Part shown: positions 9,180 to 47,311 of the stretch, in pieces
How the letters are laid out: the number at the start of each line of letters is the position of its first letter
Position numbering within the stretch: position 1 is the first letter of the stretch
Origin: Streptomyces sp. NBC_01210
GTDB taxonomy: Bacteria > Actinomycetota > Actinomycetes > Streptomycetales > Streptomycetaceae
NCBI RefSeq assembly: GCF_036010325.1
Contig: NZ_CP108549.1
Span: 3,162,001-3,226,000, forward strand
DNA: 64,000 nt
Direction: 5' to 3'
The notes under the pieces: generated by a model
What the model was told of the DNA's origin: nothing
Database searches by the model: none
What the model saw: the letters and a program-made list of their open reading frames with translations, nothing else
Program-made: the position numbers and the translations under genes

Positions 9180-9182
9180 CAC

Positions 9183-21865: not shown

Positions 21866-22005
21866 GGACACTCCGACAGTCTTACGCGGTGGAAAGTCGC
21901 GCCATGGTGCCCGGCGCATGTGTCACCTGCGTGTCGGATGCGACACGGCCCGGAAACTCGCCTGCGAGGGCGAATTTCCGGGCCGTGAAGAGCGGCGCCG
22001 ACCCG

Positions 22006-32588: not shown

Positions 32589-32642
32589 GCCTCGCCGGGC
32601 CGTATGCTCGCCGGGCGAAGCCGCGCACCGGAAGGCAGAGAA

Positions 32643-33245
32643 GTGAACTACAGGGTCCAGCCCACCGCCCAGGTCGACGAGACCGCCGAGATCGGCGCCG
32701 GGAGCAGCGTCTGGGAGCTCGCCCAGATCCGCGAGGGCGCAAAGCTCGGTGAGGGCTGTGTCGTCGGCCGCGGCGCCTACGTCGGCACCGGCGTGCAGAT
32801 CGGCGACAACGTCAAGCTGCAGAACTACGCCCTCGTGTACGAGCCCGCGGAGCTCGGCGACGGCGTCTTCGTCGGCCCCGCCGTGGTGCTCACCAACGAC
32901 CACAACCCGCGCTCCGTCGACCCGGACGGCAAGCAGAAGCGCGGCGGCGACTGGGAGGCCGTGGGCGTCAAGGTCGCCGAGGGCGCCTCGCTCGGCGCGC
33001 GCTCCGTGTGCGTGGCGCCGGTACGGATCGGACGCTGGTCCATGGTCGCCGCGGGCGCCGTCGTCACCAAGGACGTACCTGACTTCGCGCTGGTCGTCGG
33101 TGTGCCCGCGCGGCAGATCGGCTGGGTCGGCCGGTCCGGTGTCCGCCTGGTGGAGCGGGCCGGCGAGTCCGGTGTCTGGGAGTGCCCGCAGACCGGCGCG
33201 GTGTACGTCGAGAAGGACGGCGTTCTCGGCGAGCAGGCAGTCTGA
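32643..33245 (+). CDS. Nucleotide-sugar 3-N-acetyltransferase (WbpD/WlbB-like hexapeptide acyltransferase)
   Basis: A 200-residue left-handed beta-helix protein. Hexapeptide turns run from residue 10 (VDETAEIGAGSSVWELAQI) to about 160, with AVVLTNDHNPRSVDPDGK, a stretch typical of the WbpD/WlbB family that acetylates the 3-amino group of UDP-3-amino-uronates. The GTG at 32643 follows GGAAGG. The C-terminus has a short extension with one cysteine (VWECPQTG). Together with the dehydrogenase, oxidoreductase, aminotransferase and epimerase in this region it can complete a diacetamido-uronate pathway. Substrate is inferred from family and context. Confidence 0.87.
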   Translation: MNYRVQPTAQVDETAEIGAGSSVWELAQIREGAKLGEGCVVGRGAYVGTGVQIGDNVKLQNYALVYEPAELGDGVFVGPAVVLTNDHNPRSVDPDGKQKRGGDWEAVGVKVAEGASLGARSVCVAPVRIGRWSMVAAGAVVTKDVPDFALVVGVPARQIGWVGRSGVRLVERAGESGVWECPQTGAVYVEKDGVLGEQAV

Positions 33246-33253
33246 CAACGTTC

Positions 33254-33278
33254 CGGCCGCCGGTCCTGCCGGCGGCCG
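33254..33278. terminator. Bidirectional terminator between convergent genes
   Basis: cggccgccgg (33254-33263) pairs with ccggcggccg (33269-33278) around a five-base loop, between the acetyltransferase gene and the converging beta-propeller gene. Confidence 0.8.
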
Positions 33279-33338
33279 AACCGGACTCCGGGTTCCGCCC
33301 CAGCGAGGCCGGAACCGCCGCCCTGGACCCCGGTCCCC

Positions 33339-34475
33339 CTAAGCGCGGGTCCAGGCCTCCAGGGCCAGCCCCGACTCTTCCTTCTGGCGGGTCACCCGCA
33401 GCGTCCCGTCCGTACCGAACGCTGCCATCACCACCCGCCCCCTGGCGTCGATCGCCAGCGCGGGCACGCCCACGCACGGCTCGCCCGTCAGGGTCCAGCT
33501 GACGCCGCTGGACTCGTCCTCCGTCGGATAGGCGGCGAGGGCCGGACGACCGGTCTCGGCGTCACGGTGGGCGAGGATCGTGCAGTCGTGGCCGTCGACC
33601 GGGGTACGCAGCAGCGCGACCGGCCCGGTGCCCGCACCGTCACCGAGAGCGGCCGGCGTCTTGTCGGACTCGCGCCAGGCGCGGACCATGCGGTCGCCGG
33701 CGTCGTGCCAGAAGTGGGTGAGCCGGTTGCCGCCGGTGCGCTCGGCGGTGAGCGAGTCGGCAGCGGCCGAGGCCGGGATGTCCTCGGCGCGCTCGAACTT
33801 GACGCCCGCCTCCAGCTGCTTCCAGCGCATGATGTGGTCCGCCGTGGGAGCGAGGAGTTCCATCAGGCCGTCGGCCGTGATCGAGGCGGAGACCGTACCG
33901 GAAGCTCCGCTGCCCTTGAAGTCGGCCCATTTGTTCCACTTGCCCGAAGGCACCTGGCTGCGTCCGCTGACACCGCCGCCCGCGTTGCGTACGAACACGT
34001 GCAGTGAACCTTCCGCGTCCACCACTGCCGACGGCAGGCCGATCTGCTCGGCGAGGTCGGGGTCGTTCGGGTACGGGCTGCCGAGCGGATACCAGTCACG
34101 TATCGCCAGACCCGACTGGTACTGCAGGGCGTACACCACATCGGTGCCGGTCCGGCCGTCCGCGAGACGCTTGCGCCGCAGGCCCACCAGGTGGACATAG
34201 CCGTCGGCGCCCTGCGCGAGGCAGAGATACGGCAGTACGCCGGGGGCGGGGAGCAGATCGGGTGCGGACCACTCCGGGCCGCCGGGACGGGTCTCGGTCC
34301 AGCGCAGCACACCCTCGGCGGCCGGGGCGTACGCGGTGAGCCTGCCGTCCTTGCCGCGCAGCAGCCAGCCGGTGGTGGGGGCGAGGGAGGTGTCCACGGA
34401 AGGTGTTCTGCCGGCCTTGCTACTCGGCGGCGCATCCGTACGACGCGCAGATTTCCGTCCGGACCAGACCGCCAT
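33339..34475 (-). CDS. Probable beta-propeller protein of unknown function
   Basis: A 378-residue protein of repeating beta-sheet units with W/Y/L and Gly-Asp turns: GWLLRGKDGRLTAYAPA, DGYVHLVGLRRKRL, EGSLHVFVRNAGGGVSG, NRLTHFWHDAGDRMVRAW, RGRVVMAAFGTDGTLRVTRQ. Spacing of about 50-60 residues resembles PLL/tachylectin-like sugar-binding propellers. No signal peptide is evident; residues 1-25 are basic. The start ATG 34473-34475 was chosen over an upstream frame with poor composition. It is the only minus-strand gene within the plus-strand arm, between the acetyltransferase and epimerase. Binding of the polymer or a precursor is a guess from context. Confidence 0.7.
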   Translation of the reverse strand: MAVWSGRKSARRTDAPPSSKAGRTPSVDTSLAPTTGWLLRGKDGRLTAYAPAAEGVLRWTETRPGGPEWSAPDLLPAPGVLPYLCLAQGADGYVHLVGLRRKRLADGRTGTDVVYALQYQSGLAIRDWYPLGSPYPNDPDLAEQIGLPSAVVDAEGSLHVFVRNAGGGVSGRSQVPSGKWNKWADFKGSGASGTVSASITADGLMELLAPTADHIMRWKQLEAGVKFERAEDIPASAAADSLTAERTGGNRLTHFWHDAGDRMVRAWRESDKTPAALGDGAGTGPVALLRTPVDGHDCTILAHRDAETGRPALAAYPTEDESSGVSWTLTGEPCVGVPALAIDARGRVVMAAFGTDGTLRVTRQKEESGLALEAWTRA

Positions 34476-34863
34476 GGCACACCGTCGACTTTCCCGTGAC
34501 CGCCCCGCGAAACTTGCGCGTCGATAGTACGACAGCCGCAGTACGGCATCCGCCCTGCGCGGACAGGCCACAGGAGCGCTCGGCCACCCCACGGCTCGTT
34601 CACAGAATCGTTATCCGAGTACTCGTCGCACAGGTGGGACGTCCTGACAATGGGCTGGAAAGCACCGACTTCCCTGCGACGGCCGGGCCGCGAGCCTGCT
34701 CACCTCGGCGATTGCCTACCATTGCGTAGAGCACCCCTGGGCGCGTGTGCCGCACCGGGCCGTCCCGCCGCACCGGCTGTGGCGCGATCGCGCGGGGTGT
34801 CGGCCAGCAGTATGAGACCGTGACACGCCCCGCCAGTGACCTGACCCAGAAGAAGAGTGTTCA
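34476..34863. other. Divergent intergenic region before the epimerase gene
   Basis: About 390 bp separate the beta-propeller start from the epimerase GTG. Open frames here are short and unsupported. It should carry promoters for both directions. AAGAAGAG just before 34864 can serve as ribosome binding site. No clear -35/-10 pair was seen. Confidence 0.5.
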
Positions 34864-35967
34864 GTGAAAGTCATCAGCATCGTCGGTGCCCGTCCTCAAT
34901 TGGTGAAGCTCGCACCCATCGCGGCCGCGTTCTCCGAGACGGAGCACGAGCACTTCATCGTGCACACCGGGCAGCACTACGACGCCGACCTCTCCGACGT
35001 CTTCTTCGACGGACTCGGCATCCCGGACCCGGATGTCCACCTCGGTGTCGGATCCGGCAGCCACGGCGTCCAGACCGGTTCGGTGCTCACCGCGCTCGAC
35101 CCGGTCCTCGAGCGCGAGCAGCCGGACTGGGTCCTCGTCTACGGCGACACCAACTCCACGATCGCCGGTGCGCTGTCGGCCGTGAAGATGCACCTCCCGG
35201 TCGCGCACCTCGAGGCCGGCCTGCGCTCCTTCAACCGGCGTATGCCGGAGGAGCACAACCGCGTGCTGACCGACCACTGCGCCGACGTCCTGCTGGCCCC
35301 GACCGAGGAGGCCATGCGCCACCTCGCCGACGAGGGCCTCAAGGACCGCGCCGTACTCGCCGGTGACGTCATGGTCGACATCTGCCTGCGCATCCGCGAC
35401 GCGGTCCTCGCCGGCGAGCACGCGGCGCCCGCGCTGCCCGAGGGCATCGACCCCTCGCAGCCGTTCCTGCTGGCGACCCTGCACCGGCCCGACAACACCG
35501 ACGACCCCGAGCGCCTCGCCGCGATCATCGGCTCGCTGGCCAAGCTGCCGGTGCCGGTGGCGTTGCTCGCGCACCCGCGCCTGGTCGCGCGCGCCGAGCA
35601 GCACGGCATCGACCTCGCGCAGGGCTCGGTGCACGTCGGCCGCCCGCTGCCGTACGCCGGTCTGGTCGCCGCGGTGCTGGCCTCGACCGGTGTCGTCACC
35701 GACTCCGGCGGTCTCCAGAAGGAAGCCTTCCTCCTGGAGCGGATCACCACCACGATCCGTCCCGAGACCGAGTGGGTGGAAACCGTCGACACCGGTTGGA
35801 ACGTCTTGGTTCCCGACCCGCACGAGCTCTCCGCCGACGAGTGGGCCGCCACCGTCACCCGTGCGGTTCCGACGGCCGACCCGGGTACGCCGTACGGCGA
35901 CGGACGAGCCGCGCAGAATGTTGTCCGGATCATGGAACAGTGGAAGGGGGGCAGCCGGCGCGCGTGA
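34864..35967 (+). CDS. Non-hydrolysing UDP-N-acetylhexosamine 2-epimerase (WecB/WbpI family)
   Basis: A 367-residue enzyme that inverts C2 of a UDP-2-acetamido sugar through an elimination/addition mechanism. Visible signatures are SIVGARPQLVKLAPI, YGDTNSTIAGALSA, HLEAGLRSFNRRMPEEHNR and TDSGGLQKEAFLL. In a cluster that also encodes WbpA-, WbpB-, WbpE- and WbpD-like proteins, WbpI activity (UDP-GlcNAc(3NAc)A to UDP-ManNAc(3NAc)A) is more likely than WecB activity. Sequence alone does not settle the substrate. Start GTG 34864. Its stop overlaps a possible GTG of the next glycosyltransferase. Confidence 0.92.
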   Translation: MKVISIVGARPQLVKLAPIAAAFSETEHEHFIVHTGQHYDADLSDVFFDGLGIPDPDVHLGVGSGSHGVQTGSVLTALDPVLEREQPDWVLVYGDTNSTIAGALSAVKMHLPVAHLEAGLRSFNRRMPEEHNRVLTDHCADVLLAPTEEAMRHLADEGLKDRAVLAGDVMVDICLRIRDAVLAGEHAAPALPEGIDPSQPFLLATLHRPDNTDDPERLAAIIGSLAKLPVPVALLAHPRLVARAEQHGIDLAQGSVHVGRPLPYAGLVAAVLASTGVVTDSGGLQKEAFLLERITTTIRPETEWVETVDTGWNVLVPDPHELSADEWAATVTRAVPTADPGTPYGDGRAAQNVVRIMEQWKGGSRRA

Positions 35968-36029
35968 CGGACACAGGGCTTCACAGGGGGCCCGAATCCG
36001 TACATGTCACCGTGCTAGCGTCACCGTTT

Positions 36030-37490
36030 ATGTCAGCGTCTCCCAGGTCCGGGCTGCCCTCAGAAAGCACTCGGCCTCATGTCATCTATCTCGCCATCGG
36101 CTTCCCGCCGGCTGCGAAGAGCAGCGCATACCGCATGCGCGAGACGGCGAACCAGTTCTGCAAGGCGGGCTGGGATGTCACCGTCGTCAACATCGCCCAG
36201 GAGTCCTGGGAGCGGGACTCGGGCGTTGACCTCACGCTCCTCGAGCAGGTCGACCCCCGGGTGAAGATCGTCGAGCTGCCGCTTTCCCGCGAGGACCTGG
36301 AGACGGACATCCGCCTCTACGGGGAGGAGCGCGCGCTCAACCCCAACAAGTGGGTCACGCAGCTGCGCAAGCGGCAGCAGAAGCCGTTCCCCGAGCCGAA
36401 CTTCGGCGAGTGGCGCGGCGCGCTCGAGCAGGCCGTGCTCGACATTCACCAGGAGCACCCGGCGGACCTGCTCGTGGCCAGCTGCGTTCCGTATGTGAAC
36501 CTCGCTGCGGCCTGGAAGCTCTGGGAAGAGGCCCGCGTTCCGTACGCGGTGGACTTCCGCGACGGCTGGTCCATCGACGTGATCACCGGCATCGAGGCCT
36601 TCACCAAGGACTCCGAGCTGGGCCACTGGGAGCAGAAGGTCCTCGACAACGCGGTCTCGCTGTGGGTCGTGAACGACCCGATCGCCGACCACTACCGCGC
36701 CCGCTACCCGGAGATCGCCTCCCGCGTCGAGGTCGTACGCAACGGTTACGACGCCGACAGCTCGCCCGGCCGGGCGCACAACCCGGACCCCGAGTCCGGT
36801 CTTGTCTTCGGCTACCTGGGCACGGTCAACTTCACGCCCGCGCACCTGGAAACGGTGCTCAACGCCTGGCGTGCCGCCCGTGAGCGCGAGCCGCTGCTCG
36901 CCAACGCACGCTTCGAGGTCCGCGGCCACATCGGCAACGGAGCGGGCCGCGAGGCCAACAAGCACTCCGAGATGCTCAAGCAGGCCGAGGCCGACGGCGT
37001 CTCCTTCGGGGGGCCCGCCGCCAAGGCCGAGGTCTCCTCCATCTACGCCCGCTGGGACGCGATGGTGCTCATCCTGATCGGCGGTCGTTATGTGACCTCC
37101 GGCAAGGTCTACGAGTACATGGCCACCGGCCTGCCGATCGTCTCGGCGCACGTCGTCGAGCACGACGCCTCGAACGTCCTGCAGGGTCACCCCCTGTGGA
37201 CCGGCGCCGTGGGTCTCGACGAGGAGGGCCTGGCGGAGTCCTTCGTCAGGGCGGCGCACATGGCCGTCGAGACGAGCGACGAGGTGCACGCGGAAGCGAT
37301 GGCGCACGCCGACCAGTTCACCCGCGAGGCGCTGATGTCCGTCGCCGTGAAGAACCTGGTCAACCGGCTCGCCGAGGACCACGGCGGGCCTGCCGCGCTT
37401 CCCGGAGCCACCATCTCCCAGTCCGCCGGAACCGCGGATGTGGACAACTGCTCCCCGAAGTCGATCGTCGCCGGAGGTCCCAGCTCGTGA
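36030..37490 (+). CDS. GT4-like glycosyltransferase
   Basis: A 486-residue GT-B enzyme. The acceptor domain begins HVIYLAIGFPPAAKSSAYRM; the donor domain has VFGYLGTVNFTPAHLETVL, and near the end GRYVTSGKVYEYMATGLPIV with the E-containing donor-binding loop. I use ATG 36030; an upstream GTG at 35964 overlaps the epimerase stop as GTGA and would add 22 residues, so the start is uncertain. The stop overlaps the GTG of the next gene (GTGA, 37487-37490), so they are coupled. It presumably transfers a sugar made by this cluster to a lipid-linked polymer. Confidence 0.85.
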   Translation: MSASPRSGLPSESTRPHVIYLAIGFPPAAKSSAYRMRETANQFCKAGWDVTVVNIAQESWERDSGVDLTLLEQVDPRVKIVELPLSREDLETDIRLYGEERALNPNKWVTQLRKRQQKPFPEPNFGEWRGALEQAVLDIHQEHPADLLVASCVPYVNLAAAWKLWEEARVPYAVDFRDGWSIDVITGIEAFTKDSELGHWEQKVLDNAVSLWVVNDPIADHYRARYPEIASRVEVVRNGYDADSSPGRAHNPDPESGLVFGYLGTVNFTPAHLETVLNAWRAAREREPLLANARFEVRGHIGNGAGREANKHSEMLKQAEADGVSFGGPAAKAEVSSIYARWDAMVLILIGGRYVTSGKVYEYMATGLPIVSAHVVEHDASNVLQGHPLWTGAVGLDEEGLAESFVRAAHMAVETSDEVHAEAMAHADQFTREALMSVAVKNLVNRLAEDHGGPAALPGATISQSAGTADVDNCSPKSIVAGGPSS

Positions 37491-39628
37491 CCGATGTGCT
37501 GCTTGTCGCCGCCTCCCAGCCGCAGCTCGGCGTGCTGGCCGGTGCGGTGCAGAAGTTCCGCGCTCTCGGCGCCAGCGTCTACCTGGCCTGTGCCTTCGAC
37601 GCAAAGGGCTGCCAGGAGGAACTCGACCGGCTCGAGCTGGACGGGTACCACCAACTGCCGTACGGAATAGGGCATCTGAGCACCTCCACGCGGCGCAAGC
37701 TGAAGAAGGTGCCGCACAGCCGGCGGCTGTGGATCCAGAGCCGTCGCAACGTCTGGCTGCGCCGGCACGGTCTGGGCGCGCAGCAGCTCGTCGCGCTCGA
37801 CGCGAACGCCGTGTACACGGTCTGGCGGCTGGCCCAGTACAACACCGGCGCCGGTGCCTCCTTCGGTATCGCGCCGGCTCTGCGGGCCCTGGAGAATCCG
37901 CGTGTACCGGGCCGTCCGTCCGCGGTTGCGACCAGGCGGAAGGCACTCGTGCCGCCGCCGGCGCTGCTCGCCAGCGATGTACGCCGCCAGGCCAAGGCAC
38001 TGCCCCAGACCATGCTGCGTACGGCCACCGCACGCCCCGTGATGCGCAGCTCCGTCGGCGCCCGGCTGTGGCGCACCGCCCTCGGCGCGCCCGGTGTGCC
38101 CGCCAAGGTGCGGGCCGCGCTGTCCCGCCAGGTGGCGGAGGGCATGCGCTGGGCCGGCCGGCCCGGTGGCGCGACGCTCGCGCTGACCACCGCCGCGGGG
38201 CGTATCTCGGACCGGAAGATCAGGACCGGGCTGCTGGACGAGGCGGTCAAGACCGAGCTCAACAAGGGCATCGCACCGCGTGCTCTGGACCGTACGGTCA
38301 ATGAGCTGCTGGCCTCCGCGGACGAGTACTACAAGGCCGGTGACCCGGCTGCGGCGGCGTCCACGCTGGACCGTGCGCTCGTTCTCGGTTTCCACCGGGT
38401 CGTCCACATCGACCAGTTGAGCTCTCCGCTGGCCGCCGACCCCGAGGCCTTCTCCGCGCCGGTGCACCGCTCGGCGGTCATGAAGAAGATCGTGGAGCCG
38501 CGCGGCAGGAAGACTCCCGCCGCCACGCCACCGGCCGACCGGCCGCTGCGGCTGCTGGTCACCACGAGCGCCAACGACAACTTCCTGAAGCTGATCCTGT
38601 CCCACTACGAGGCCCACCAGGGCGTCGAGGTCCGCTACCTGGACCTGGCGGCCAGCCCGGCCATGAAGCGCCTCTCGTGGGCCGGCCGGCGGATGATAGA
38701 GAACCGTCTCGGGGGCGACGCCCTCTACGCGGAGCAGGTCGAGACGCTCATGCGGCCCCATCTGGACTGGGCCGACACGGTGTTCCTCGACTGGTGTGTG
38801 GCACCGGCCGTGATGCTCACGACGATCGACCCGGGCGACACCCGGATCGTCGTCCGGCTGCACAGCTACGAGGCCTTCACCCGCTGGCCGCACCTGGTCG
38901 ACTTCTCGCGTGTGGACGACCTCGTGTACGTCGCGGACCATGTGCAGGACCTGACGACCTCGCTGGTTCCGCAGCTGCGCGGTCCGCAGGCGCCGCGTAC
39001 GCACATGCTCGACAACGCCATGGACCTGAGCGCCTTCAACCGCGCGAAGCCGGCCGACGCCCGCTTCAACCTCGGGCTCATCGGTATCTCGCAGGTCGCG
39101 AAGGACCCGCTGTGGGCCATCGACGTACTGCAGCGGGTACGCAAGGCGGACGAGCGCTACCGGCTGCTGCTGGTCGGCAGTGACATGGACCGCAAGACCA
39201 GCCGCGCCACCAAGGACTACCTCGCGGAGTTCGAGAAGCAGCTGGCGCCGCTGGAGGAGTCCGGTGCGGTGGTACGTCTCGGGCCGACCGACGATGTGCC
39301 GTCCGCGCTCACCGAGATCGGTACGATCCTCAGCTCCTCAGTGCGTGAGGGCTGCCACGTCGGGCTGATGGAGGGCGCGGCGAGCGCCGCCGTCCCCGTC
39401 GTCCGCGACTGGCCGTTCTACGCCGGGCGCGAGCACAGTGCCCGGACGCTCTACCCCGAGGGCTGGGTCGTGGGCTCTCCCGAGGAGGCCGCCAAGCGCA
39501 TCCTCGAGACCACCGCGACCGAGGAGAACTGGCGGAACGCGGGCAAGCTCGCCTCCGAGCATGCGCTCTCCGCGTGGGACTGGCCCGTGGTGAGCCGACG
39601 CTTCGACAAGCTGCTGCTCGGCGAGTAG
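37487..39628 (+). CDS. Two-domain glycosyltransferase-like protein, unusual
   Basis: A 713-residue protein starting at GTG 37487 with GGAGG upstream and a four-base overlap with the preceding gene. Residues 1-330 begin with a Rossmann-like strand (VLLVAASQPQLGVLAGAV) and continue into a basic helical region with no recognised family. Residues about 350-713 form a GT-B-like half: RLLVTTSANDNFLKLIL, VVRLHSYEAFTRWPHLVDF, LGLIGISQVAKDPLWAIDVL and SSSVREGCHVGLMEGAASAA. The last resembles donor-binding loops. It may be two fused transferases or one transferase with a large regulatory domain. It is last in the plus-strand arm, just before the IS30 insertion. Confidence 0.75.
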   Translation: MTDVLLVAASQPQLGVLAGAVQKFRALGASVYLACAFDAKGCQEELDRLELDGYHQLPYGIGHLSTSTRRKLKKVPHSRRLWIQSRRNVWLRRHGLGAQQLVALDANAVYTVWRLAQYNTGAGASFGIAPALRALENPRVPGRPSAVATRRKALVPPPALLASDVRRQAKALPQTMLRTATARPVMRSSVGARLWRTALGAPGVPAKVRAALSRQVAEGMRWAGRPGGATLALTTAAGRISDRKIRTGLLDEAVKTELNKGIAPRALDRTVNELLASADEYYKAGDPAAAASTLDRALVLGFHRVVHIDQLSSPLAADPEAFSAPVHRSAVMKKIVEPRGRKTPAATPPADRPLRLLVTTSANDNFLKLILSHYEAHQGVEVRYLDLAASPAMKRLSWAGRRMIENRLGGDALYAEQVETLMRPHLDWADTVFLDWCVAPAVMLTTIDPGDTRIVVRLHSYEAFTRWPHLVDFSRVDDLVYVADHVQDLTTSLVPQLRGPQAPRTHMLDNAMDLSAFNRAKPADARFNLGLIGISQVAKDPLWAIDVLQRVRKADERYRLLLVGSDMDRKTSRATKDYLAEFEKQLAPLEESGAVVRLGPTDDVPSALTEIGTILSSSVREGCHVGLMEGAASAAVPVVRDWPFYAGREHSARTLYPEGWVVGSPEEAAKRILETTATEENWRNAGKLASEHALSAWDWPVVSRRFDKLLLGE

Positions 39629-39638
39629 GACAGCGCGC

Positions 39639-39662
39639 GTACGAAGGAAGGGCCCCCGGGAA
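39639..39662. terminator. Left half of a palindromic terminator split by the IS30 element
   Basis: This arm (gtacgaaggaagggccccc then ggga, ending with the target duplication gaa) is the exact inverse of 41001-41023. Removing the element and one gaa copy restores a 47-bp perfect palindrome between the convergent genes. Confidence 0.88.
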
Positions 39663-40997
39663 CTTCAGTTCTAGCGGTCGTTGCAACACCCCAGTTCAAG
39701 GGGTGCGATGGACTTCGAGATTCGCAAGAACAGGAAGTCGCAGGGGCGCAAGCCGTTGCTCCGTGAGCGGGCCGCATACTTCCAGCTCATGGAGCAGGGC
39801 TACAGCACCCGGGAAGCGGCCCGGATCGTCGGCATCGACCGCCGTACGGGCAAGAAGTGGCGTAACGGTCACCAAAGGGGCCGCAAGGCGGTCCCTCCGA
39901 TCTACCAGGAACCCGGGCAGACGCCCGGGCCGCCGGGGCCGGAGGGACCGCCTCCTGCTCCGTCGCGGTATCTCCAGGAGCACGACCGCATTCACATCGC
40001 CGACCGGCTGCGTGAGAAGGCGTCCGTCCGGCAGATCGCCGCCGAGCTGGGCCGCAGCCCGTCCACCATCAGCCGCGAGATACGCCGCAACCGGCGGACC
40101 ATGCCCAAAGGGGGCTGGTACTACCGGCCGCACACCGCCCAGGCCCGGGCCGACGCCCGCCGGCCCCGCCCCAAGACCGGCAAGATCGGCCAGAACCCCG
40201 AACTGCGGGACTTCATCCAGGACCACCTCACGATGCGGTGGAGCCCTGAGCAGATCTGCCAGGCTCTGCGGGCACGCTTCCCTGACCGGCCGGAGATGCA
40301 CGTGACCCACGAGACCGTCTACCAGGCCCTCTACGTCCAGGGCCGCGGCGAACTCCGCCGGGAACTGGCCCGCTCCCTGCGCACCGGCCGGGCCCGCCGG
40401 CGCCCGCAGCGCCAGGCCCACAAGCGCATCTCCCGCGCCATCAAGGACATGGTCCTGATCAGCGAACGCCCCGCCGAAGCCGCCGACCGGGCCGTCCCCG
40501 GCCACTGGGAGGGCGACCTCATCATCGGCAAGGACGGACGCTCGGCCATCGGCACCCTGGTCGAACGGTCCACCCGCTACGTGATGCTCGTGCACCTGCC
40601 GACCGGCCACAGCGCCATCGCCACCCGCAACGCGCTCGCCACTACCGTCCAGACCCTCCCGCCGCATCTGTGGCGGTCCCTGACCTGGGACCAGGGCTCA
40701 GAGATGGCAGCCCACCGCGCCTTCACCGTCGCCACCGACATCCCGGTCTACTTCTGCGACCCAGCCAGCCCCTGGCAGCGCGGGTCGAACGAGAACACGA
40801 ACGGCCTGCTGCGGCAGTACTTCCCCAAGGGCACCGACCTGAGCGCCCATACCCCCGACCACCTGGAAACGGTGGCCGCCGAACTCAACAGCCGCCCACG
40901 CAAAACGCTCGGCTGGGAAACCCCAGCCGAGCGCCTCGCTAAGCTACTGGACCTAGCCAGCTGACCAGCAGTGTTGCAACGACCCCTCGAATTCGCC
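39663..40997 (+). mobile_element. IS30-family insertion sequence, about 1335 bp
   Basis: The element has imperfect inverted ends that share ggtcgttgcaacac (39676-39689, inverse at 40971-40984), with a partly matching attcNag stretch outside, resembling known IS30 ends. It is flanked by a three-bp direct repeat gaa (39660-39662 and 40998-41000). One intact transposase fills it. Intact ends, target duplication and ORF suggest a recent, possibly active insertion. Confidence 0.9.
39708..40964 (+). CDS. IS30-family transposase
   Basis: A 418-residue DDE transposase. The N-terminal HTH regions read YSTREAARIVGIDRRTGKKW and REKASVRQIAAELGRSPSTI followed by SREIRRNRR. The catalytic core shows PGHWEGDLIIGKDGRSAI (first Asp), LTWDQGSEMAAH (second Asp), and WQRGSNENTNGLLRQYFPKG (Glu in NxNGLLR). 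ATG 39708 follows AAGGGG; an upstream TTG at 39681 lies inside the inverted repeat and is less likely. No frameshift or stop interrupts it. Confidence 0.95.
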   Translation: MDFEIRKNRKSQGRKPLLRERAAYFQLMEQGYSTREAARIVGIDRRTGKKWRNGHQRGRKAVPPIYQEPGQTPGPPGPEGPPPAPSRYLQEHDRIHIADRLREKASVRQIAAELGRSPSTISREIRRNRRTMPKGGWYYRPHTAQARADARRPRPKTGKIGQNPELRDFIQDHLTMRWSPEQICQALRARFPDRPEMHVTHETVYQALYVQGRGELRRELARSLRTGRARRRPQRQAHKRISRAIKDMVLISERPAEAADRAVPGHWEGDLIIGKDGRSAIGTLVERSTRYVMLVHLPTGHSAIATRNALATTVQTLPPHLWRSLTWDQGSEMAAHRAFTVATDIPVYFCDPASPWQRGSNENTNGLLRQYFPKGTDLSAHTPDHLETVAAELNSRPRKTLGWETPAERLAKLLDLAS

Positions 40998-41023
40998 GAA
41001 TCCCGGGGGCCCTTCCTTCGTAC
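40998..41023. terminator. Right half of the palindromic terminator split by the IS30 element
   Basis: Begins with the second gaa target copy and continues tcccgggggcccttccttcg then tac, the inverse of 39639-39661. Confidence 0.88.
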
Positions 41024-41033
41024 AGGCAGTGAA

Positions 41034-41137
41034 TCTGCGCCGCCGCTCTGCGCGGTGGACCTGCGCCGCCGCGCTGCGCGGTGGACCTGCACAGCCGCTC
41101 TGCGCGGTGGACCTGCACGGCCGCTCTGCGCGGTGGA
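41034..41137. repeat. 26-bp tandem repeat, four copies
   Basis: Units start near 41034, 41060, 41086 and 41112, each ending gctgcgcggtgga or ctctgcgcggtgga. Copies are about 85-95 percent alike. The array lies between the split terminator and the galE stop and is not a multiple of three. No hairpin pattern is obvious. Confidence 0.88.
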
Positions 41138-41143
41138 TCCTGC

Positions 41144-42124
41144 TCAGCCGCGCGCCTCCGGGTGGCGCAGGCACCAGCCCGCCCAAGCCGATGTGACCAT
41201 CGCGCGCACGTCGTGGCGCGCCTGCCAGCCCAGCTCCTCACGGATCCGGTCGGCCGCCGCCACGACCCGTGCGGGGTCGCCGGGACGGCGCTCGGTGACC
41301 ACGGGCTTGAGGTCTTCCCGTCCGCTGACGTCCTGGATGGTGGTGACCATCTCGGCGACCGAAACACCTTCGCCGCGGCCGATGTTGAGGATCAGCGAGG
41401 CCGAGGCGTCCTCGGCGAGCCGCCGCGCCGCCGCGACATGGGCGGAGGCGATGTCCTCGACATGGATGTAGTCGCGGATGCAGGTGCCGTCGGGCGTCTG
41501 GTAGTCGTCGCCGAAGATACGCGGCGACTCGTCCGCCGTGAGGCGCTCGAAGACCATCGGCACCAGATTGAAGATGCCGTCGTCACCGAGTTCGGGCGAG
41601 GCGGCGCCCGCGACGTTGAAGTAGCGCAGCGAGGCGGTCGCCATACCGTGTGCCTTGCCGACGGCTGTCACCAGCCATTCGCCGGCCAGCTTGGTCTCGC
41701 CGTACGGGCTCATCGGCAGGCACGGCGTCTGCTCGGTGACCAGGTCGACATCGGGCATGCCGTAGACCGATGCGGAGGAGGAGAACAGGAACCGGCGCAC
41801 ATCGGCGTCGGCGGCCGCGGCCAGAACGGTCCGCAGCCCCTCGACGTTCTCGTAGTAGTAGTGCAGCGGCAGCGCGACGGACTCGCCGACCTGCTTCTTG
41901 CCCGCGAGATGCACGATGCCGGTGACGGAGTGCTCGCGCAGGACGCGGTCGACCAGCTCACGGTCGAGTACCGAGCCCAACTCCAGCGGGACTCCGGCGG
42001 ACAGCCGCTCGGTGCTGCCCGTGCTGAGGTCGTCGAGGACGACGACACGCTCGCCGCCGTCGGTCATCGCCTTCACCACGTGCGAGCCGATGTATCCGGC
42101 GCCGCCAGTAATCAACCAGGTCAT
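41144..42124 (-). CDS. galE: UDP-glucose 4-epimerase family protein
   Basis: A 326-residue extended SDR. NAD-binding MTWLITGGAGYIGSHVVKAM is at the N-terminus, the catalytic block SSSASVYGMPDVDLVTEQ then SPYGETKLAGEWL (YxxxK) near 150, and RYFNVAGAASPELGDD near 180. GalE interconverts UDP-Glc and UDP-Gal, and some members use the N-acetyl forms. ATG 42122-42124 begins the protein. A strong hairpin separates it from the preceding dehydrogenase operon, so it probably has its own promoter. It may supply UDP-Gal or UDP-GalNAc to the nearby transferases. Confidence 0.92.
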   Translation of the reverse strand: MTWLITGGAGYIGSHVVKAMTDGGERVVVLDDLSTGSTERLSAGVPLELGSVLDRELVDRVLREHSVTGIVHLAGKKQVGESVALPLHYYYENVEGLRTVLAAAADADVRRFLFSSSASVYGMPDVDLVTEQTPCLPMSPYGETKLAGEWLVTAVGKAHGMATASLRYFNVAGAASPELGDDGIFNLVPMVFERLTADESPRIFGDDYQTPDGTCIRDYIHVEDIASAHVAAARRLAEDASASLILNIGRGEGVSVAEMVTTIQDVSGREDLKPVVTERRPGDPARVVAAADRIREELGWQARHDVRAMVTSAWAGWCLRHPEARG

Positions 42125-42144
42125 GGGGAAACCCTCTGCAACTC

Positions 42145-42177
42145 GGCCCTGCCCCACCAACTACGCGGGGCAGGGCC
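42145..42177 (-). terminator. Terminator of the nucleotide-sugar operon
   Basis: ggccctgcccc (42145-42155) pairs perfectly with ggggcagggcc (42167-42177) around an 11-base loop, downstream of the dehydrogenase and upstream of galE. Confidence 0.85.
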
Positions 42178-42262
42178 TTCGTCTCGTAGATCAGCCATCA
42201 ATTGAGGCAACCCCCGCGAGAGCCTCCGCGGGAGCGGCGCCGGTTCAGGCGCGGTGGCAGCG

Positions 42263-43546
42263 TCAGCCGCCGATGACGACGCGGCGGACGCCTTCCCAGC
42301 GCGCCGGGTCGGTGGTGCGCCGGCCGTCGACCAGGACGCGGACGTCCGGCAGGTCGGTGGCGGCCAGCTCGCGGTACTCGGCGTGGTCGGCCTGCAGGAT
42401 CGCGGCGGTGACTACCTGGCCCTCGTGCGGAGTGAGGTCGTGCGCGGCCAGCTCCTCGGAGGTGTACATCGGGTCCGACACGAAGGGGACGGCCCCGCGC
42501 GCCTTGAGCGCCTCGACGGTCGGGAAGACGCCGGAGAAGGCCGTCTCCTTCACGCCGCCGCGGTAGGCGGCGCCGAGCACCAGCACGCCCACGCCGTCCA
42601 GGTCGCCGTAGGCGGCGGCCAGCAGATCGACGGCGTACTCCGGCATGGCGGCGTTCGCCTCGCGCGCCGAGCGCACGACGGTGGCCTCCGGGTCGTTCCA
42701 CAGGTACATCCGCGGGTAGATCGGGATGCAGTGGCCGCCGACCGCGATACCGGGCTGGTGGATGTGGCTGTACGGCTGCGAGTTGCAGGCCTCGATGACC
42801 TTCTTGACGTCGATGTCGTTCTTGTCGGCGAAGCGGGCGAACTGGTTCGCCAGGCCGATGTTGACGTCGCGGTAGGTGGTCTCGGCGAGCTTCGCCAGCT
42901 CCGAGGCCTCGGCGGTGCCCAGGTCCCAGACGCCGTTCGGCTGCGCCAGGTCCGCGCGCTCGTCGAAGTCGAGCACCTGCTCGTAGAACTCCACACCGCG
43001 CTGCGTCGAGGCCTCGTCGATGCCGCCGACGAGCTTGGGGTAACGGCGCAGGTCGGCGAAGACACGGCCGGTGAGGACGCGCTCCGGCGAGAAGACCAGG
43101 TGGAAGTCCTTGCCCGCGGTGAGGCCGGAGCCCTGCTCCAGCATCGGGGCCCAGCGGGTGCGGGTGGTGCCGACCGGCAGGGTGGTCTCGTACGAGACGA
43201 GGGTGCCGGGCTTGAGGCCGGCGGCGATCGCCTTGGTCGCGGAGTCCATCCAGCCGAAGTCCGGCACGCCCTCGGCGTCCACGAACAGCGGGACCACGAC
43301 CACGACGGCGTCGGACTCGGCGACGGCGGCCGCGGTGTCGGTGGTCGCGGACAGCAGCCCGGCGCCGACGGTCTCCTTGAGCAGGCGGTCGAGGTCGTGC
43401 TCGCCGGGGAAGGGCTCGGTGCCGGCGTTGACCAGCTCGACGACCTTCTCGTTGACGTCGGCGCCGATCACCCGGTGGCCCTTGGCGGCGAACTGCACGG
43501 CGAGCGGAAGCCCGATCTTGCCGAGCGCGACTACACAGATATTCAT
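42263..43546 (-). CDS. UDP-sugar 6-dehydrogenase (WbpA/WecC-type)
   Basis: A 427-residue NAD-dependent dehydrogenase that oxidises C6 of a UDP-sugar to a carboxylate. The Rossmann start is MNICVVALGKIGLPLAVQFA; KDFHLVFSPERVLTGRVF is characteristic of N-acetylhexosamine dehydrogenases; catalytic Cys273 lies in AVGGHCIPIYPRMYL. ATG 43544-43546 overlaps the GT2 stop as ATGA. With the WbpB-, WbpE-, WbpD- and WbpI-like enzymes here, UDP-GlcNAc is the likely substrate. UDP-ManNAc (WecC) is the main alternative and cannot be excluded from sequence. Confidence 0.92.
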   Translation of the reverse strand: MNICVVALGKIGLPLAVQFAAKGHRVIGADVNEKVVELVNAGTEPFPGEHDLDRLLKETVGAGLLSATTDTAAAVAESDAVVVVVPLFVDAEGVPDFGWMDSATKAIAAGLKPGTLVSYETTLPVGTTRTRWAPMLEQGSGLTAGKDFHLVFSPERVLTGRVFADLRRYPKLVGGIDEASTQRGVEFYEQVLDFDERADLAQPNGVWDLGTAEASELAKLAETTYRDVNIGLANQFARFADKNDIDVKKVIEACNSQPYSHIHQPGIAVGGHCIPIYPRMYLWNDPEATVVRSAREANAAMPEYAVDLLAAAYGDLDGVGVLVLGAAYRGGVKETAFSGVFPTVEALKARGAVPFVSDPMYTSEELAAHDLTPHEGQVVTAAILQADHAEYRELAATDLPDVRVLVDGRRTTDPARWEGVRRVVIGG

Positions 43547-45171
43547 CGGGTTACTTTCCTCTTCAACCGGACCAGCAGGGGTCGCACGCGCGACCACCAT
43601 CTTTGCGCGGGCGGGAACAGCAGACCGGTCTGGATGACCATCCGGCCCTTGGGATTCACGCGCGCCGCCACTCGATACGGGGTGCCACTGCGCCAGCGCC
43701 GGGCGAGCGGCATCGGCAGATCCTTGCCGCGCACCGGGATCTCGTATGTCCAGCCTGCGACATCCACATAGAGGCGCACGCCGAGCGAGGCCTGGCGGGG
43801 CTGGATCGGAATCCGCGCACGGACGACCGTGCCGGCGCCGTCAGCAGTGACTTCCTGAGTGAACTCCCCCATGGGTGCGGGGAGTTCATGGCCGGCGGGC
43901 AGCCTGCGGGCGCCGGCCTTGTCCGCGCTCTTGGGCATCGCGCCCTGGACGAGCCGGACGACGGCCGAGTCGGTGTCACCGGTGAGCCCGGTCCGTACCG
44001 CCAGGGCCAGGGACAGATCGTCGCCGTTCTGCTCCCACTCGGCCGAGACCAGCTCGGTCCGGGCCGAGAGCCGGCCGGGCACCGATTCCCCGACCACCTC
44101 GAAGACCCGGTCGGGGAGATCCATCGCGGGGTCCCTGAAGCCCGGGTAGAGCGCGAAGGCCCTGTCGTCCTCCAGGTGGAACGGCGGTGCGCCGTTCTCC
44201 TCCTCCGCCACGATCGCCGCGACGAGCTCGTCCACCGCGCCGCGCCGGGCCAGGGCGAGCCTGACCCGTCGCATGACCGGCAGCGAGTCGCTCAGACCGT
44301 CCGTGAGGTACTCGTCGGCCAGATCGGCGATACCGGCGCACACCTCGCGCCTGGTCCGCGGGTCGAGCGCCGGGAAGTCGCCCTGGATGAGCTTGGACAG
44401 CTCCCAGGTGAAGTGGCGCTTGAAGACGAAGTCCCGCTGCGGTCCCGCCTCGATCAGTCCGGCCGCGTGCTTGAGGATCTTCGCGGTGCAGCCGAGCCGG
44501 GCGAGATGATTCGCCCGGTAGGTGATGTTGCTCGCGTCCCCGCGCTTGACCGCGTAGTAGTACGTGTAGTCCGCGAGCACCGAGATCTTCCGGGCCCGGA
44601 CACACGCCTCGACGGTGAACGGCTGGTCGCTGCCGACCGGCAGGTCCTCGGGGAAGCGCAGGTGGTACTTCTCCACCAGTTCACGGCGGAAGAGCTTGGT
44701 GTTGGCCAGCGTGAACGGCAGTGCCGAGTCGTACAGGCTGACGTCCGGGTCGCTCTTCTTGAAGAGCGCCTGATGGACATAGCGGCCGTTGGTGCCGACC
44801 ATCTTGCCGACCACGACGTCGGATTCGTGCTTCTCGGCACAGGCCACCATCCGCTCCAACGCCTCTTTGCCGAGGTAGTCGTCGGAGCCGATGAAGTACA
44901 CATAACGTCCGGTGGCCACGTCCAGCGCCCTGTTGCTGGGCGCGGCCGGGCCACCGGAGTTCGCCTGGTGTATCACCTTGACGGTGTCCGGGTACTTCTT
45001 GGCGAAGCGGTCGAGCTCCGCTCCGCTGTCGTCCGTGGAACCGTCGTCGACGGCCACGATCTCGAGCCTGTCCAGGCCAATGCTCTGCCCGACAAGGGAG
45101 TTAAGGCATTCCGTCAGATACGGCATCGTGTTGTACACGGCGACGACGACGGTGACATCAGGACTGGTCAA
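43543..45171 (-). CDS. GT2 family glycosyltransferase with C-terminal domain
   Basis: A 542-residue protein. Residues 1-230 are a GT-A transferase with VTVVVAVYNTMPYLTECL, EIVAVDDGSTDDSGAEL and the metal motif FIGSDDYLGKEAL. The middle is helical, and residues about 370-520 form a beta-rich domain ending in a basic segment (RVRPLLVRLKRKVTR). Similar architecture occurs in teichoic and teichuronic acid transferases. The only start before the first strand is TTG 45169-45171; GAGGAG lies only two bases upstream, unusually close. It sits between the oxidoreductase and dehydrogenase genes. Confidence 0.88.
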   Translation of the reverse strand: MTSPDVTVVVAVYNTMPYLTECLNSLVGQSIGLDRLEIVAVDDGSTDDSGAELDRFAKKYPDTVKVIHQANSGGPAAPSNRALDVATGRYVYFIGSDDYLGKEALERMVACAEKHESDVVVGKMVGTNGRYVHQALFKKSDPDVSLYDSALPFTLANTKLFRRELVEKYHLRFPEDLPVGSDQPFTVEACVRARKISVLADYTYYYAVKRGDASNITYRANHLARLGCTAKILKHAAGLIEAGPQRDFVFKRHFTWELSKLIQGDFPALDPRTRREVCAGIADLADEYLTDGLSDSLPVMRRVRLALARRGAVDELVAAIVAEEENGAPPFHLEDDRAFALYPGFRDPAMDLPDRVFEVVGESVPGRLSARTELVSAEWEQNGDDLSLALAVRTGLTGDTDSAVVRLVQGAMPKSADKAGARRLPAGHELPAPMGEFTQEVTADGAGTVVRARIPIQPRQASLGVRLYVDVAGWTYEIPVRGKDLPMPLARRWRSGTPYRVAARVNPKGRMVIQTGLLFPPAQRWWSRVRPLLVRLKRKVTR

Positions 45172-45182
45172 GGCTCCTCGCC

Positions 45183-46196
45183 CTACTGGGCCGCGGCGTG
45201 CGCGGAGAGATCGACGGTGATGCCGAGCGAAGCGGATTCCAGCACCGCGGCTGCCACCTCGACCGTACGAAGGCCCTGGCGGAGCGTGCAGATGTCCGTG
45301 GACTTGCCGAGGACCGCGTCACGGAAGAGCTCGTGCTCAACCAGCAGCGGCTCACGCTTCGGGATGGCGTAGCGGATCATGTCGCCCTCGGCGACACCGC
45401 GGAAGGCCTGCAGGGCCTCCCACTCGGTGGCCTGGGCGGCGTTGGAGTAGAAGGTCAGGTCGGCGGTGAGGGTGTCCGCGATGAAGCAGCCCTTCTCACC
45501 GGTGACCGAGGTGAACCGCTCCTTGAGCGGGCTCAGCCAGTTGACCAGGTGGTTGACCATGGTGCCGTCGGAGAGCTGACCGACCGCGGAGACCATGTCC
45601 TCGTGCGGACGGCCCGACTTGGAGACCGTACGGGCGGAGATCGAGGTGTACGTCTGACCCGTCACCCACCCGGTGAGGTCGATGTCGTGGGTGGCGAGGT
45701 CCTTTACCACGCCGACATCGGCGATGCGGTGCGGGAAGGGGCCCTGGCGGCGGGTGACGACCTGGTAGACGTCGCCGAGCTCGCCGGCCTCCAGTCGCTG
45801 GCGCAGCGAGCGCAGCGCGGGGTTGCAGCGCTCGATGTGGCCGACGCCGGCGACCAGGCCGCGCGACTCGAAGGCCTCGACGAGGCGGCGGGCGCCTTCC
45901 ACGGTGTCCGCGACCGGCTTCTCGACCAGCGCGCCGACACCGGCCTCGGCGAGCTTGAGACCGACTTCCTCGTGCAGGGCGGTCGGGCAGGCCACGACGG
46001 CGTAGTCGATGCCGAGCGCGATGAGCTCCTCGACGGTCGACAGCACAGGGGCGCCCTGCCCCCAGCCGTTCTTGTCACCCATCGGGTCGACGACGGCGAC
46101 AAGCTCCACGCCCTCGAGACCGGCGAGTACGCGGGCGTGGTGGCGGCCCATCGAGCCGAGGCCGATCAGGCCGGCTCGCAGTCCCCGGGTGGTCAC
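45183..46196 (-). CDS. Gfo/Idh/MocA oxidoreductase (WbpB/WlbA-like)
   Basis: A 337-residue NAD-dependent oxidoreductase. The Rossmann motif GLIGLGSMGRHHARVLAG is near residue 9; EKP at 92-94 is the conserved catalytic/cofactor segment; GHIERCNPALRSLRQRL and ATHDIDLTGWVTG match members that oxidise C3 of UDP-GlcNAcA. It would produce the 3-keto sugar for the adjacent aminotransferase. GTG 46194-46196 overlaps the aminotransferase stop as GTGA, so translation is coupled. Substrate is inferred from family plus context. Confidence 0.9.
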   Translation of the reverse strand: MTTRGLRAGLIGLGSMGRHHARVLAGLEGVELVAVVDPMGDKNGWGQGAPVLSTVEELIALGIDYAVVACPTALHEEVGLKLAEAGVGALVEKPVADTVEGARRLVEAFESRGLVAGVGHIERCNPALRSLRQRLEAGELGDVYQVVTRRQGPFPHRIADVGVVKDLATHDIDLTGWVTGQTYTSISARTVSKSGRPHEDMVSAVGQLSDGTMVNHLVNWLSPLKERFTSVTGEKGCFIADTLTADLTFYSNAAQATEWEALQAFRGVAEGDMIRYAIPKREPLLVEHELFRDAVLGKSTDICTLRQGLRTVEVAAAVLESASLGITVDLSAHAAAQ

Positions 46197-47311
46197 AGAT
46201 TCTCTCCAAGATCGTTCACGGCGGCGACGATGCGCTCGAGGTCCTCCGCGGTCAGCGAAGGATGCACCGGCAGCGAGACGACCTCGGAGGCCGCGCGCCC
46301 GGTCTCGGGCAGGTCCCAGTTACGGCCGGCCTTCTGGTCCGGCTCCCAGTACGGCTTCAGCCGGTGGATCGGGGTCGGGTAGTACACGGCGTTGCCGACG
46401 CCCGCCTCGGTGAGCTTCGCCATCGCGGCGTCGCGGTCCCCTGTGATCCGGATCGTGTACTGGTGGTAGATGTGGCGCGCGCCCTCGGCGACCGTCGGGG
46501 TCTGCACGTTCGGCGCCGTGATGTGCTCGGTGAGGTACGCGGCGTTGGCGATGCGCTGCTCGGTCCAGCCGCCCAACTTCGACAGCTGTACGCGGCCGAC
46601 GGCGGCGGCGACGTCGGTCATCCGCATGTTGGCGCCGACGATCTCGTTGGCGTACCGCTGCTCCATGCCCTGGTTGCGCAGCAGGCGCAGGGTGCGGGCG
46701 ACCTCGGCGTCACCGGTGGAGATCATGCCGCCCTCGAGGGAGTGCATGTTCTTGGTCGGGTAGAAGCTGAACGTGCCGCCGGAGCCGAAGGCGCCGACCG
46801 GGGTGCCGTTCAGCGCCGCGGCGTGCGCCTGGCAGGCGTCCTCGACCACGGCCAGCTTGTGCTTGGCGGCGATGGGCATGATCTTGTCCATCGCGGCCGG
46901 GTGGCCGTAGAGGTGCACCGGCATGATCGCGGCGGTGCGCGGCGTGATGGCGGCCTCGACCGCCGCCGGGTCCAGGCCGTAGCTGCCGGGCTCGATGTCG
47001 GCGAAGACGACGTCGGCGCCGACCAGGCGGACCGCGTTCGCCGAGGCGGCGAACGAGAACGAAGGAACGATTACTTCGTCACCCGGACCGATACCAAGTG
47101 CCAGCAGAAGGAGGTGCAGTGCGGAGGTACCCGAGTTGACGGCCACGCAATGGCGCCCCTCGACCAGCTCCGAGAAGCCCTCCTCGAATGCCGCCACCTC
47201 CGGGCCCTGTACGACCCTGCCGGAACGCAGTACGCGTACCGCCGCCTCGATCTCTTCCTCACCGATGACCGGGCGGGCAGCGGGAATGGGCTGCTGGTTG
47301 CTGCTCGTCAT
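46193..47311 (-). CDS. DegT/DnrJ/EryC1/StrS sugar aminotransferase (WbpE/WlbC-like)
   Basis: A 372-residue PLP enzyme that aminates a keto-sugar nucleotide, usually with glutamate. PLP-binding Lys187 is in FSFYPTKNMHSLEGG; other signatures are VNSGTSALHLLLLALGI, GDEVIVPSFSFAASANAV and VVEDACQAHAA. ATG 47309-47311 begins the gene and the operon running down to 42263. Its pairing with a WlbA-like oxidoreductase matches the WbpB/WbpE coupled pair that builds the 3-amino group of diacetamido-uronates. Confidence 0.93.
   Translation of the reverse strand: MTSSNQQPIPAARPVIGEEEIEAAVRVLRSGRVVQGPEVAAFEEGFSELVEGRHCVAVNSGTSALHLLLLALGIGPGDEVIVPSFSFAASANAVRLVGADVVFADIEPGSYGLDPAAVEAAITPRTAAIMPVHLYGHPAAMDKIMPIAAKHKLAVVEDACQAHAAALNGTPVGAFGSGGTFSFYPTKNMHSLEGGMISTGDAEVARTLRLLRNQGMEQRYANEIVGANMRMTDVAAAVGRVQLSKLGGWTEQRIANAAYLTEHITAPNVQTPTVAEGARHIYHQYTIRITGDRDAAMAKLTEAGVGNAVYYPTPIHRLKPYWEPDQKAGRNWDLPETGRAASEVVSLPVHPSLTAEDLERIVAAVNDLGENL

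Follow-up and report, generated by a model that had tools for sequence, protein, structure and literature searches.

The 64,000-nucleotide stretch of the Streptomyces sp. NBC_01210 genome analyzed here (hereafter the window; 3.16-3.23 Mb on contig 1 of a 9.2 Mb genome in two contigs) contains a block of sugar genes between the L21 gene rplU (30113-30433) and an RNase E/G family gene (47652-51656). We compare this block with the utr system of Streptomyces griseus, the umbrella toxin resistance locus for teichuronic acid on wall teichoic acid (TUA-WTA) (Zhao et al., Cell, December 2025; PMC13274773), and name its genes accordingly. The block has the same G+C content as the window (0.699) and is organized as two opposed operons. 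Encoded on the minus strand are a utrA-like DegT/DnrJ/EryC1/StrS aminotransferase (46193-47311; PF01041, 403 bits), predicted to carry out a C-3 amination in the role of WbpE/GnnB; a utrB-like Gfo/Idh/MocA protein (45183-46196; best NCBIfam model NF040723, 192 bits), the predicted C-3 dehydrogenase; a utrC-like family 2 glycosyltransferase (GT2) with a TarS linker (43543-45171; PF00535 and PF22181), predicted to start a chain on ribitol phosphate; a utrD-like nucleotide-sugar 6-dehydrogenase (42263-43600; TIGR03026, 290 bits, cut-off 190); and a utrE-like GalE-type 4-epimerase (41144-42160; TIGR01179, 326 bits, cut-off 262), predicted to convert UDP-N-acetylglucosamine (UDP-GlcNAc) to UDP-N-acetylgalactosamine (UDP-GalNAc).

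The plus-strand operon begins with a utrJ-like hexapeptide N-acetyltransferase in the WlbB/WbpD role (32604-33245, the start possibly at 32643), continues with a utrH-like gene (34864-35967; TIGR00236, 248 bits, over the cut-off) for a predicted 2-epimerase of UDP-2,3-diacetamido-2,3-dideoxy-glucuronic acid (UDP-GlcNAc3NAcA), and ends with two group-1 glycosyltransferase-like genes, both assigned by position and by PF13692 (cut-off 27 bits): utrG-like (35964-37490, start approximate; 33 bits), predicted to transfer the corresponding mannuronic acid, ManNAc3NAcA, and utrF-like (37487-39628; 26 bits), predicted to transfer GalNAc. The first-pass annotation of this DNA had named five enzymes of diacetamido-uronate synthesis together with a GalE and three glycosyltransferase-like genes, and family scans recover every one of them as an open reading frame with the expected domains. 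It overlooked an IS30 transposase gene (39681-40964) and a conserved minus-strand gene (33339-34475), to which we return below.

Much is known about the corresponding locus of S. griseus. Many mutants resistant to the umbrella toxin of S. coelicolor map to utrA-E, with utrF-J forming an adjoining operon on the opposite strand; nuclear magnetic resonance (NMR) identified a polymer built from GalNAc and ManNAc3NAcA, whose reducing end is a GlcNAc3NAcA attached to the ribitol phosphate of teichoic acid, and deletion of utrC abolishes this polymer (PMC13274773). From structural models, the authors assigned UtrD, UtrA/UtrB, UtrJ and UtrH to a Pseudomonas-like pathway, UtrE to the supply of UDP-GalNAc, UtrC, UtrF and UtrG to assembly, and UtrI to terminal O-acetylation; S. 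antibioticus, which is without utrE, utrF and utrH, has a GlcNAc3NAcA polymer, and the O-acetyltransferases differ between species (PMC13274773). This article was the only source on the utr locus of Streptomyces that our literature searches returned.

By domains compared with the published description, the block accounts for nine of the ten utr functions. Shared with S. griseus are the arrangement of utrA-E domains opposed to utrF-J domains, the anchor genes (L21, L27, TarIJ- and TagF-type genes all adjoin the block) and the UtrC aspartate: the GT2 protein here carries the motif GSDQPF with Asp182, counted from a TTG start, one number off the published catalytic D181 (PMC13274773). This strain differs from S. 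griseus in that no utrI was found, a PLL-type propeller gene occupies its slot, and an IS30 element lies between the operons. The assignment of locus type stands without utrI, because O-acetyltransferases are reported to vary among species (PMC13274773). We put the probability that the block is a utr-type locus making a ManNAc3NAcA-GalNAc teichuronic-like polymer on wall teichoic acid at about 0.88. The first-pass annotation had proposed a route through a UDP-2,3-diacetamido-2,3-dideoxy-uronate to a teichuronic-type wall polymer, a proposal backed by the S. griseus NMR and utrC deletion (PMC13274773); it is very probably correct and already published for a relative (Zhao et al., Cell 2025). 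It did not foresee the attachment of the S. griseus polymer to wall teichoic acid, nor that no utrI would be found here.

In the pathway that we propose, UtrB, UtrA, UtrJ and UtrD would convert UDP-GlcNAc to UDP-GlcNAc3NAcA by C-3 oxidation, amination, N-acetylation and C-6 oxidation, and UtrH would epimerize part of this product at C-2 to UDP-ManNAc3NAcA. UtrE would supply UDP-GalNAc. UtrC would start the chain by placing GlcNAc3NAcA on ribitol phosphate, and UtrF and UtrG would alternate GalNAc and ManNAc3NAcA to give a teichuronic-acid-like polymer on a wall teichoic acid whose backbone may come from the adjoining TarIJ-like and TagF-like genes. We infer each of these reactions in this strain, and the order of the two oxidations, from the genes and families observed.

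One indication of the sugar comes from the epimerase. UtrH scores 323 bits against 8sxv, the UDP-GlcNAc3NAcA 2-epimerase of Thermus thermophilus, compared with 238 and 122 bits against the UDP-GlcNAc 2-epimerases 4neq and 1f6d, which we take to be the Methanocaldococcus jannaschii and Escherichia coli enzymes, respectively. All seven actinobacterial UtrH rows aligned have Trp at position 307 (Thermus numbering), Tyr at 96 and Leu at 18; Trp, Tyr and Ala are all present in the rows from Thermus, Sulfitobacter, Pseudomonas, Deinococcus, Haloferax and Priestia, and two WecB-like Streptomyces control rows have Arg at 307 and Val at 96. At the positions of Trp307, Tyr96 and Ala18 of the Thermus enzyme, the residues in UDP-GlcNAc enzymes are Arg, His/Gln and Leu/Met, respectively (PMC10622841). 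The substrate-site residues, which the first-pass annotation had suggested inspecting, are therefore of the UDP-GlcNAc3NAcA type at two positions but not at the third. Among PDB chains, UtrJ is closest to 3mqg (163 bits, next 88), presumably WlbB. For the aminotransferase UtrA the best PDB match is 7b0d (301 bits), and WbpE (3nyu, 228 bits) is outscored by other chains too.

The genes are also inherited together. In a sample of 199 genomes of the genus, own genome included (counts ignore relatedness), utrD is present in 34 (E <= 1e-80), utrA in 35 (E <= 1e-110) and utrB in 36 (E <= 1e-40); the extra genomes for utrA and utrB, G075 and G147, have matches of 41-60% identity, and at >= 69% identity the three genes occur in an identical set of 34 genomes. 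Epimerase matches occur in 76 genomes at E 0.001, reaching >= 70% identity in 17 only (the next down is 46%), and all 17 fall within the 34, for which the naive chance is ~1e-15 with relatedness ignored. Given this shared occurrence of utrA, utrB, utrD and the epimerase, the block is no chance gathering. One of the 17 genomes, G110, has its epimerase (69-70%) with a distant aminotransferase at 0.93-0.95 Mb (L031), ~2.5 Mb from its utrA-D block, in which no epimerase of its own was seen. The chromosomal position recurs as well: rplU and/or the RNase E/G gene lie within <= 20 kb in 27 of 30 utrABD loci, the other three being among the most diverged (the remaining four of the 34, our own genome and three on broken contigs, were left out of this count).

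Beyond this sample, the closest named loci by epimerase identity (93-98%), among the best 80 of at least 594 matched stretches, are from Streptomyces, and the same 80 include Kribbella, Micromonospora, Actinoplanes, Actinomadura, Glycomyces, Nocardioides and Jiangella. At >= 55% identity over 60% of the length, utrA, utrB, utrD and utrH are found together in 63 of these loci, and utrJ too in 49; of all 80, 18 have a length below 21 kb. In all eight Kribbella loci utrJ-A-B-H are consecutive, with utrD ~1.2 kb further across a gap that holds one open frame. A Haloferax gibbonsii plasmid (L144) has five consecutive annotated genes for acetyltransferase, aminotransferase, Gfo/Idh, dehydrogenase and epimerase; in the trees described below, the Gfo of this haloarchaeal set is on the same side as UtrB and its dehydrogenase on the same side as UtrD, and its epimerase has Ala at 18.

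The acetyltransferase has a wider distribution. It is present in 57 of the 199 genomes (E <= 1e-40), namely all 34 utrABD genomes and 23 more, and since those 23 carry utrJ orthologues without utrA, utrB or utrD at these thresholds, utrJ alone is not diagnostic. We considered whether the same pathway operates in the 23 and rejected it: the two epimerases aligned from them (L051 and L052) have the WecB-type Val and Arg. The loci L051-L053 have utrJ orthologues of 76-81% identity together with a distant epimerase and a distant dehydrogenase, and nothing in them matches utrA or utrB at E 1e-5; their utrJ-type acetyltransferase may use another substrate. Relatives of utrB at 60-62% identity are also seen on six Streptomyces plasmids. 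On that of strain NBC_00984 (L146, 4366-8005) the utrB relative (62%) is preceded by a gene annotated as a sugar aminotransferase, and a phosphopantetheine-binding protein with a match to utrJ is encoded nearby. Possibly the steps that make a 3-amino sugar have been taken over here for the synthesis of a small molecule.

A more complicated picture emerges from the Gfo/Idh protein. The best PDB chain for UtrB is 7bvj (82 bits), which we take to be GnnA, followed by an inositol dehydrogenase (67 bits), and no WbpB/WlbA chain is present among the 60 of 61 PDB matches listed. A control protein, the Gfo from a plasmid cluster of Pseudomonas that holds annotated wbpA, acyltransferase, aminotransferase and epimerase genes, scores 574 bits against WbpB (3oa2) and 298 bits against 3o9z. 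The Gfo proteins of this cluster and of those from Sulfitobacter and Deinococcus are mutually 52-61% identical; UtrB has either no match to these three or one of 32-42 bits, compared with 131-313 bits for the other four Utr proteins against their partners in wbp-type clusters. The best NCBIfam model for UtrB is NF040723, archaeal UDP-GlcNAc 3-dehydrogenase (187.6 bits in a second scan), and the next is inositol 2-dehydrogenase at 88 bits.

Tree inference points the same way. In a tree of 16 rows, the WbpB/WlbA rows split from all others with support of 100/99. 7bvj groups with the haloarchaeal rows (93/98, not starred), and the fork with the UtrB rows and inositol dehydrogenase lacks resolution; the tree does not group UtrB with GnnA, and inositol dehydrogenase lies on the same side. 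All three trees calculated in this study are small (14-16 rows) and have long rows flagged, with long-branch joins possible in that of UtrB. Across 120 loci (117 distinct, three genomes having been entered twice), a WbpB-type match at E 1e-5 is found in seven, at most 47 bits, and UtrB scores 405-647 bits in the 103 loci (100 distinct) passing 55% identity over 60% of the length. Because of the 100/99 split and the scores across these loci, we place UtrB outside the WbpB/WlbA family. Kinship with GnnA-type enzymes, suggested by score and not proven, is our best guess. Literature searches found no paper placing UtrB outside the WbpB family, although Table S3 of PMC13274773 may state so. GnnA and GnnB, which produce UDP-GlcNAc3N for lipid A, share with the utr locus the 3-oxidation and transamination, to which the utr locus adds an acetyltransferase, a 6-dehydrogenase and a 2-epimerase.

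The 6-dehydrogenase likewise departs from the Pseudomonas type. The best PDB chain for UtrD is 4r16 (202 bits), a UDP-ManNAcA dehydrogenase from an archaeon. Within the plasmid collection UtrD is most similar, at 38-41% identity, to proteins from Priestia, a cyanobacterium, a rhizobium and haloarchaea; identity is 32.5% to plasmid WbpA and 28% to TviB. In a tree of 14 rows, UtrD is split (99/95) from one row annotated as WbpA and one annotated as TviB, those two being among four flagged long branches, and by this sampling UtrD falls outside the WbpA/TviB rows. The first-pass annotation had assumed a straight Wbp set, which is not borne out for these two proteins. The alignments to Wbp and Wlb proteins that it called for divide, with the epimerase and acetyltransferase siding with the diacetamido enzymes but the Gfo/Idh and the dehydrogenase not. 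It had also named, as an outcome that would speak against its reading, a dehydrogenase clustering with WecC/UDP-Glc enzymes together with an acetyltransferase from an unrelated hexapeptide family; the dehydrogenase comes close to this, its best solved relative being a UDP-ManNAcA enzyme, but the acetyltransferase is nearest 3mqg.

How do these placements affect the pathway? The utr locus shares with the Pseudomonas WbpA-B-E-D-I set, and with the Wlb set of Thermus and Bordetella, five functions leading to UDP-ManNAc3NAcA, and its aminotransferase, acetyltransferase and epimerase are homologous to those of three wbp-type clusters (38-48% identity). It differs in its Gfo/Idh, which comes from outside the WbpB family, in its 6-dehydrogenase, and in that the product goes to wall teichoic acid, following the S. 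griseus model, rather than to lipopolysaccharide. One alternative, departing from our proposed pathway in step order only, is the plain Wbp order, in which UtrD oxidizes C-6 of UDP-GlcNAc first, UtrB then acts on UDP-GlcNAcA, UtrA, UtrJ and UtrH follow, and the family differences are chemically irrelevant. We give this about even odds: the assignment of a Pseudomonas-like pathway from structural models (PMC13274773) and the clear wbp-type homologues of four of the five proteins speak for it, and the near absence of similarity between UtrB and the three wbp-cluster Gfo proteins, the nearest solved structure 7bvj and the placement of UtrD speak against it.

Taken together, the placements of UtrB and UtrD make C-3 modification before C-6 oxidation, as in our proposed pathway, a real option, and GnnA acts on UDP-GlcNAc itself (PMC5644692). 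We tentatively extend this to the suggestion, which we regard as possible but short of an even chance, that a second route to UDP-GlcNAc3NAcA, distinct from the Wbp one, is common to actinobacteria and haloarchaea: GnnA-type C-3 oxidation would come first, amination and acetylation would follow, and a ManNAc-dehydrogenase-like UtrD would oxidize C-6 late. If true, the Wbp-like order in which the steps to teichuronic acid in Streptomyces have been published would be wrong. The WbpB of P. aeruginosa is reported to have a ping-pong mechanism with 2-oxoglutarate as NADH oxidant, and its counterparts in two other species to be sequential (PMC10622841), so that enzymology can separate the routes.

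Several observations weigh against the overall assignment and should temper it. Leu at position 18 of UtrH is as in UDP-GlcNAc enzymes, UtrD is nearer to the archaeal UDP-ManNAcA dehydrogenase than to WbpA, and UtrB at 192 bits is below the 450-bit cut-off of NF040723. The 23 genomes with utrJ orthologues in the absence of utrA, utrB and utrD show that part of the set also occurs elsewhere. Orthology to the S. griseus genes was judged from published order and domains and one catalytic aspartate rather than by direct protein comparison, the order within utrF-J was taken from the gene lettering, and UtrF and UtrG were assigned from weak PF13692 matches plus position. The polymer of this strain is predicted from its genes.

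The first two of these points, the UtrD relative and Leu18, could favor a different final sugar, either UDP-ManNAc(3NAc) without C-6 oxidation or a ManNAcA polymer with UtrA, UtrB and UtrJ serving another product. We consider this unlikely in view of the joint inheritance of utrA, utrB and utrD, the Trp307 and Tyr96 of the epimerase, and the NMR data on two utr-bearing Streptomyces, which show ManNAc3NAcA or GlcNAc3NAcA (PMC13274773). Still less credible is a capsule or antibiotic sugar cluster with no wall link, as might be argued from the 62% utrB relative on a Streptomyces plasmid, beside an aminotransferase and near a utrJ-matching protein with the other utr genes not annotated, given the adjoining teichoic acid genes, the TarS-like UtrC, the recurrent rplU-RNase E/G slot and the S. 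griseus phenotype (PMC13274773).

A utr-type locus for a ManNAc3NAcA-GalNAc polymer thus remains the preferred reading, and within it the strain shows its own variation, as in the utrI slot. The 1.6-kb gap between utrJ and utrH (33246-34863) was considered as a site for utrI and rejected, as it holds the minus-strand gene, which is conserved in 11 other loci. As a probe, we used the Acyl_transf_3 gene between utrJ and utrH in S. halstedii (L081), presumably a close relative of S. griseus, taken as utrI by place and domain; it had no match in this genome at E 0.001. Applied likewise to nine other genomes, it detected a copy inside the locus in G053 (77%) and in G100 (72%) and a 68% copy elsewhere in G006; G149 and G158 have only matches of <= 38% (for G158, one of these is inside the utr block), and G094, G034, G125 and G029 have none. 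Since no utrI was found in the locus or the genome, the polymer of this strain would be expected to lack the terminal 4-O-acetyl group, if UtrI acts as predicted and no unrelated enzyme substitutes.

The gene in its place (33339-34475), antisense to the operon, encodes a predicted PLL-type beta-propeller. An AlphaFold2 model from 12 rows has a mean predicted local distance difference test score of 84.7, and the best Foldseek match is 8q83 (PLL5; E 3.6e-15), within the Photorhabdus PLL/PHL lectins, with template modeling scores of ~0.8 by target length and 0.74 by query length. Its identity as UmbA was considered and rejected, there being no Pfam match even at E 10 and no signal peptide by eye. 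The family is present in 153 of the 199 genomes (E 1e-30), in the utr block in a subset of loci and, among the places listed, mostly far from utr genes, for which reason we claim no role for it in the polymer; it is tied to the polymer by position only. Among the 117 distinct loci, the propeller (11) and utrI at >= 50% identity (10) never share a locus, and this is uninformative because about one shared locus is expected by chance. Of 377 homologues matched database-wide, the 120 listed are for the most part annotated as hypothetical proteins of Streptomyces; a PLL-like propeller domain is given for some of them and a function for none.

The IS30 transposase gene (plus strand; NF033563, 299 bits), outside the pathway, lies between utrF and utrE, with the arms of a GC-rich hairpin on either side (~39639-39661 and 41001-41023) that are contiguous in the related locus L060; the split hairpin between convergent operons is likely a two-way terminator. 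An identical 427-aa transposase is encoded at six places in the genome, this one and five more, suggesting recent movement.

Among the neighboring genes, a Pfam scan identified L21, L27, OBG and RNase_E_G domains in those flanking the block. Between rplU and utrJ lies a plus-strand gene (30711-32588) for a 625-aa protein whose only match is DUF4034 (21.8 bits, cut-off 21.3), with a hydrophobic C-terminus by eye, found beside utrJ in three scanned loci only (84% in L060, 66% in L020, 63-72% in L022). This is the reported place of umbA in S. griseus, and the protein here has no lectin or trypsin-like domain by Pfam (the rest of the genome was not searched for umbA). The neighboring wall teichoic acid locus, on the minus strand, contains a TarIJ-like gene with an IspD domain and a short-chain dehydrogenase (24327-26309; PF01128, 153 bits; PF00106, 102 bits), a TagF-like glycerophosphotransferase gene (22006-24192; PF04464, 33 bits, cut-off 22), and an adjoining gene for a GT2 with a TarS linker (20807-21919; PF00535, 112 bits; PF22181, 48 bits). 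Two minus-strand tRNA-Ala (GGC) genes ~1 kb apart are present at 8694-9783 of the window.

The system itself is known in print; new here are the placement of UtrB outside the WbpB family, the placement of UtrD, the absence of any detected utrI, and the propeller gene. As UtrB is not placed with WbpB, different substrates are worth testing. The combination of utrA, utrB and utrD provides a cleaner genomic marker than the acetyltransferase, and by it the gene set can be traced to Kribbella, Glycomyces, Micromonospora and Actinomadura and, by function, to haloarchaea. In S. griseus and S. antibioticus the polymer is the receptor by which umbrella toxins choose their Streptomyces targets (PMC13274773), so that how the polymer is made and how it varies contribute to determining which strains the toxins can kill. 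With its missing utrI, this strain would serve as a naturally occurring case in which to test what the terminal O-acetyl group contributes to the binding of lectins.

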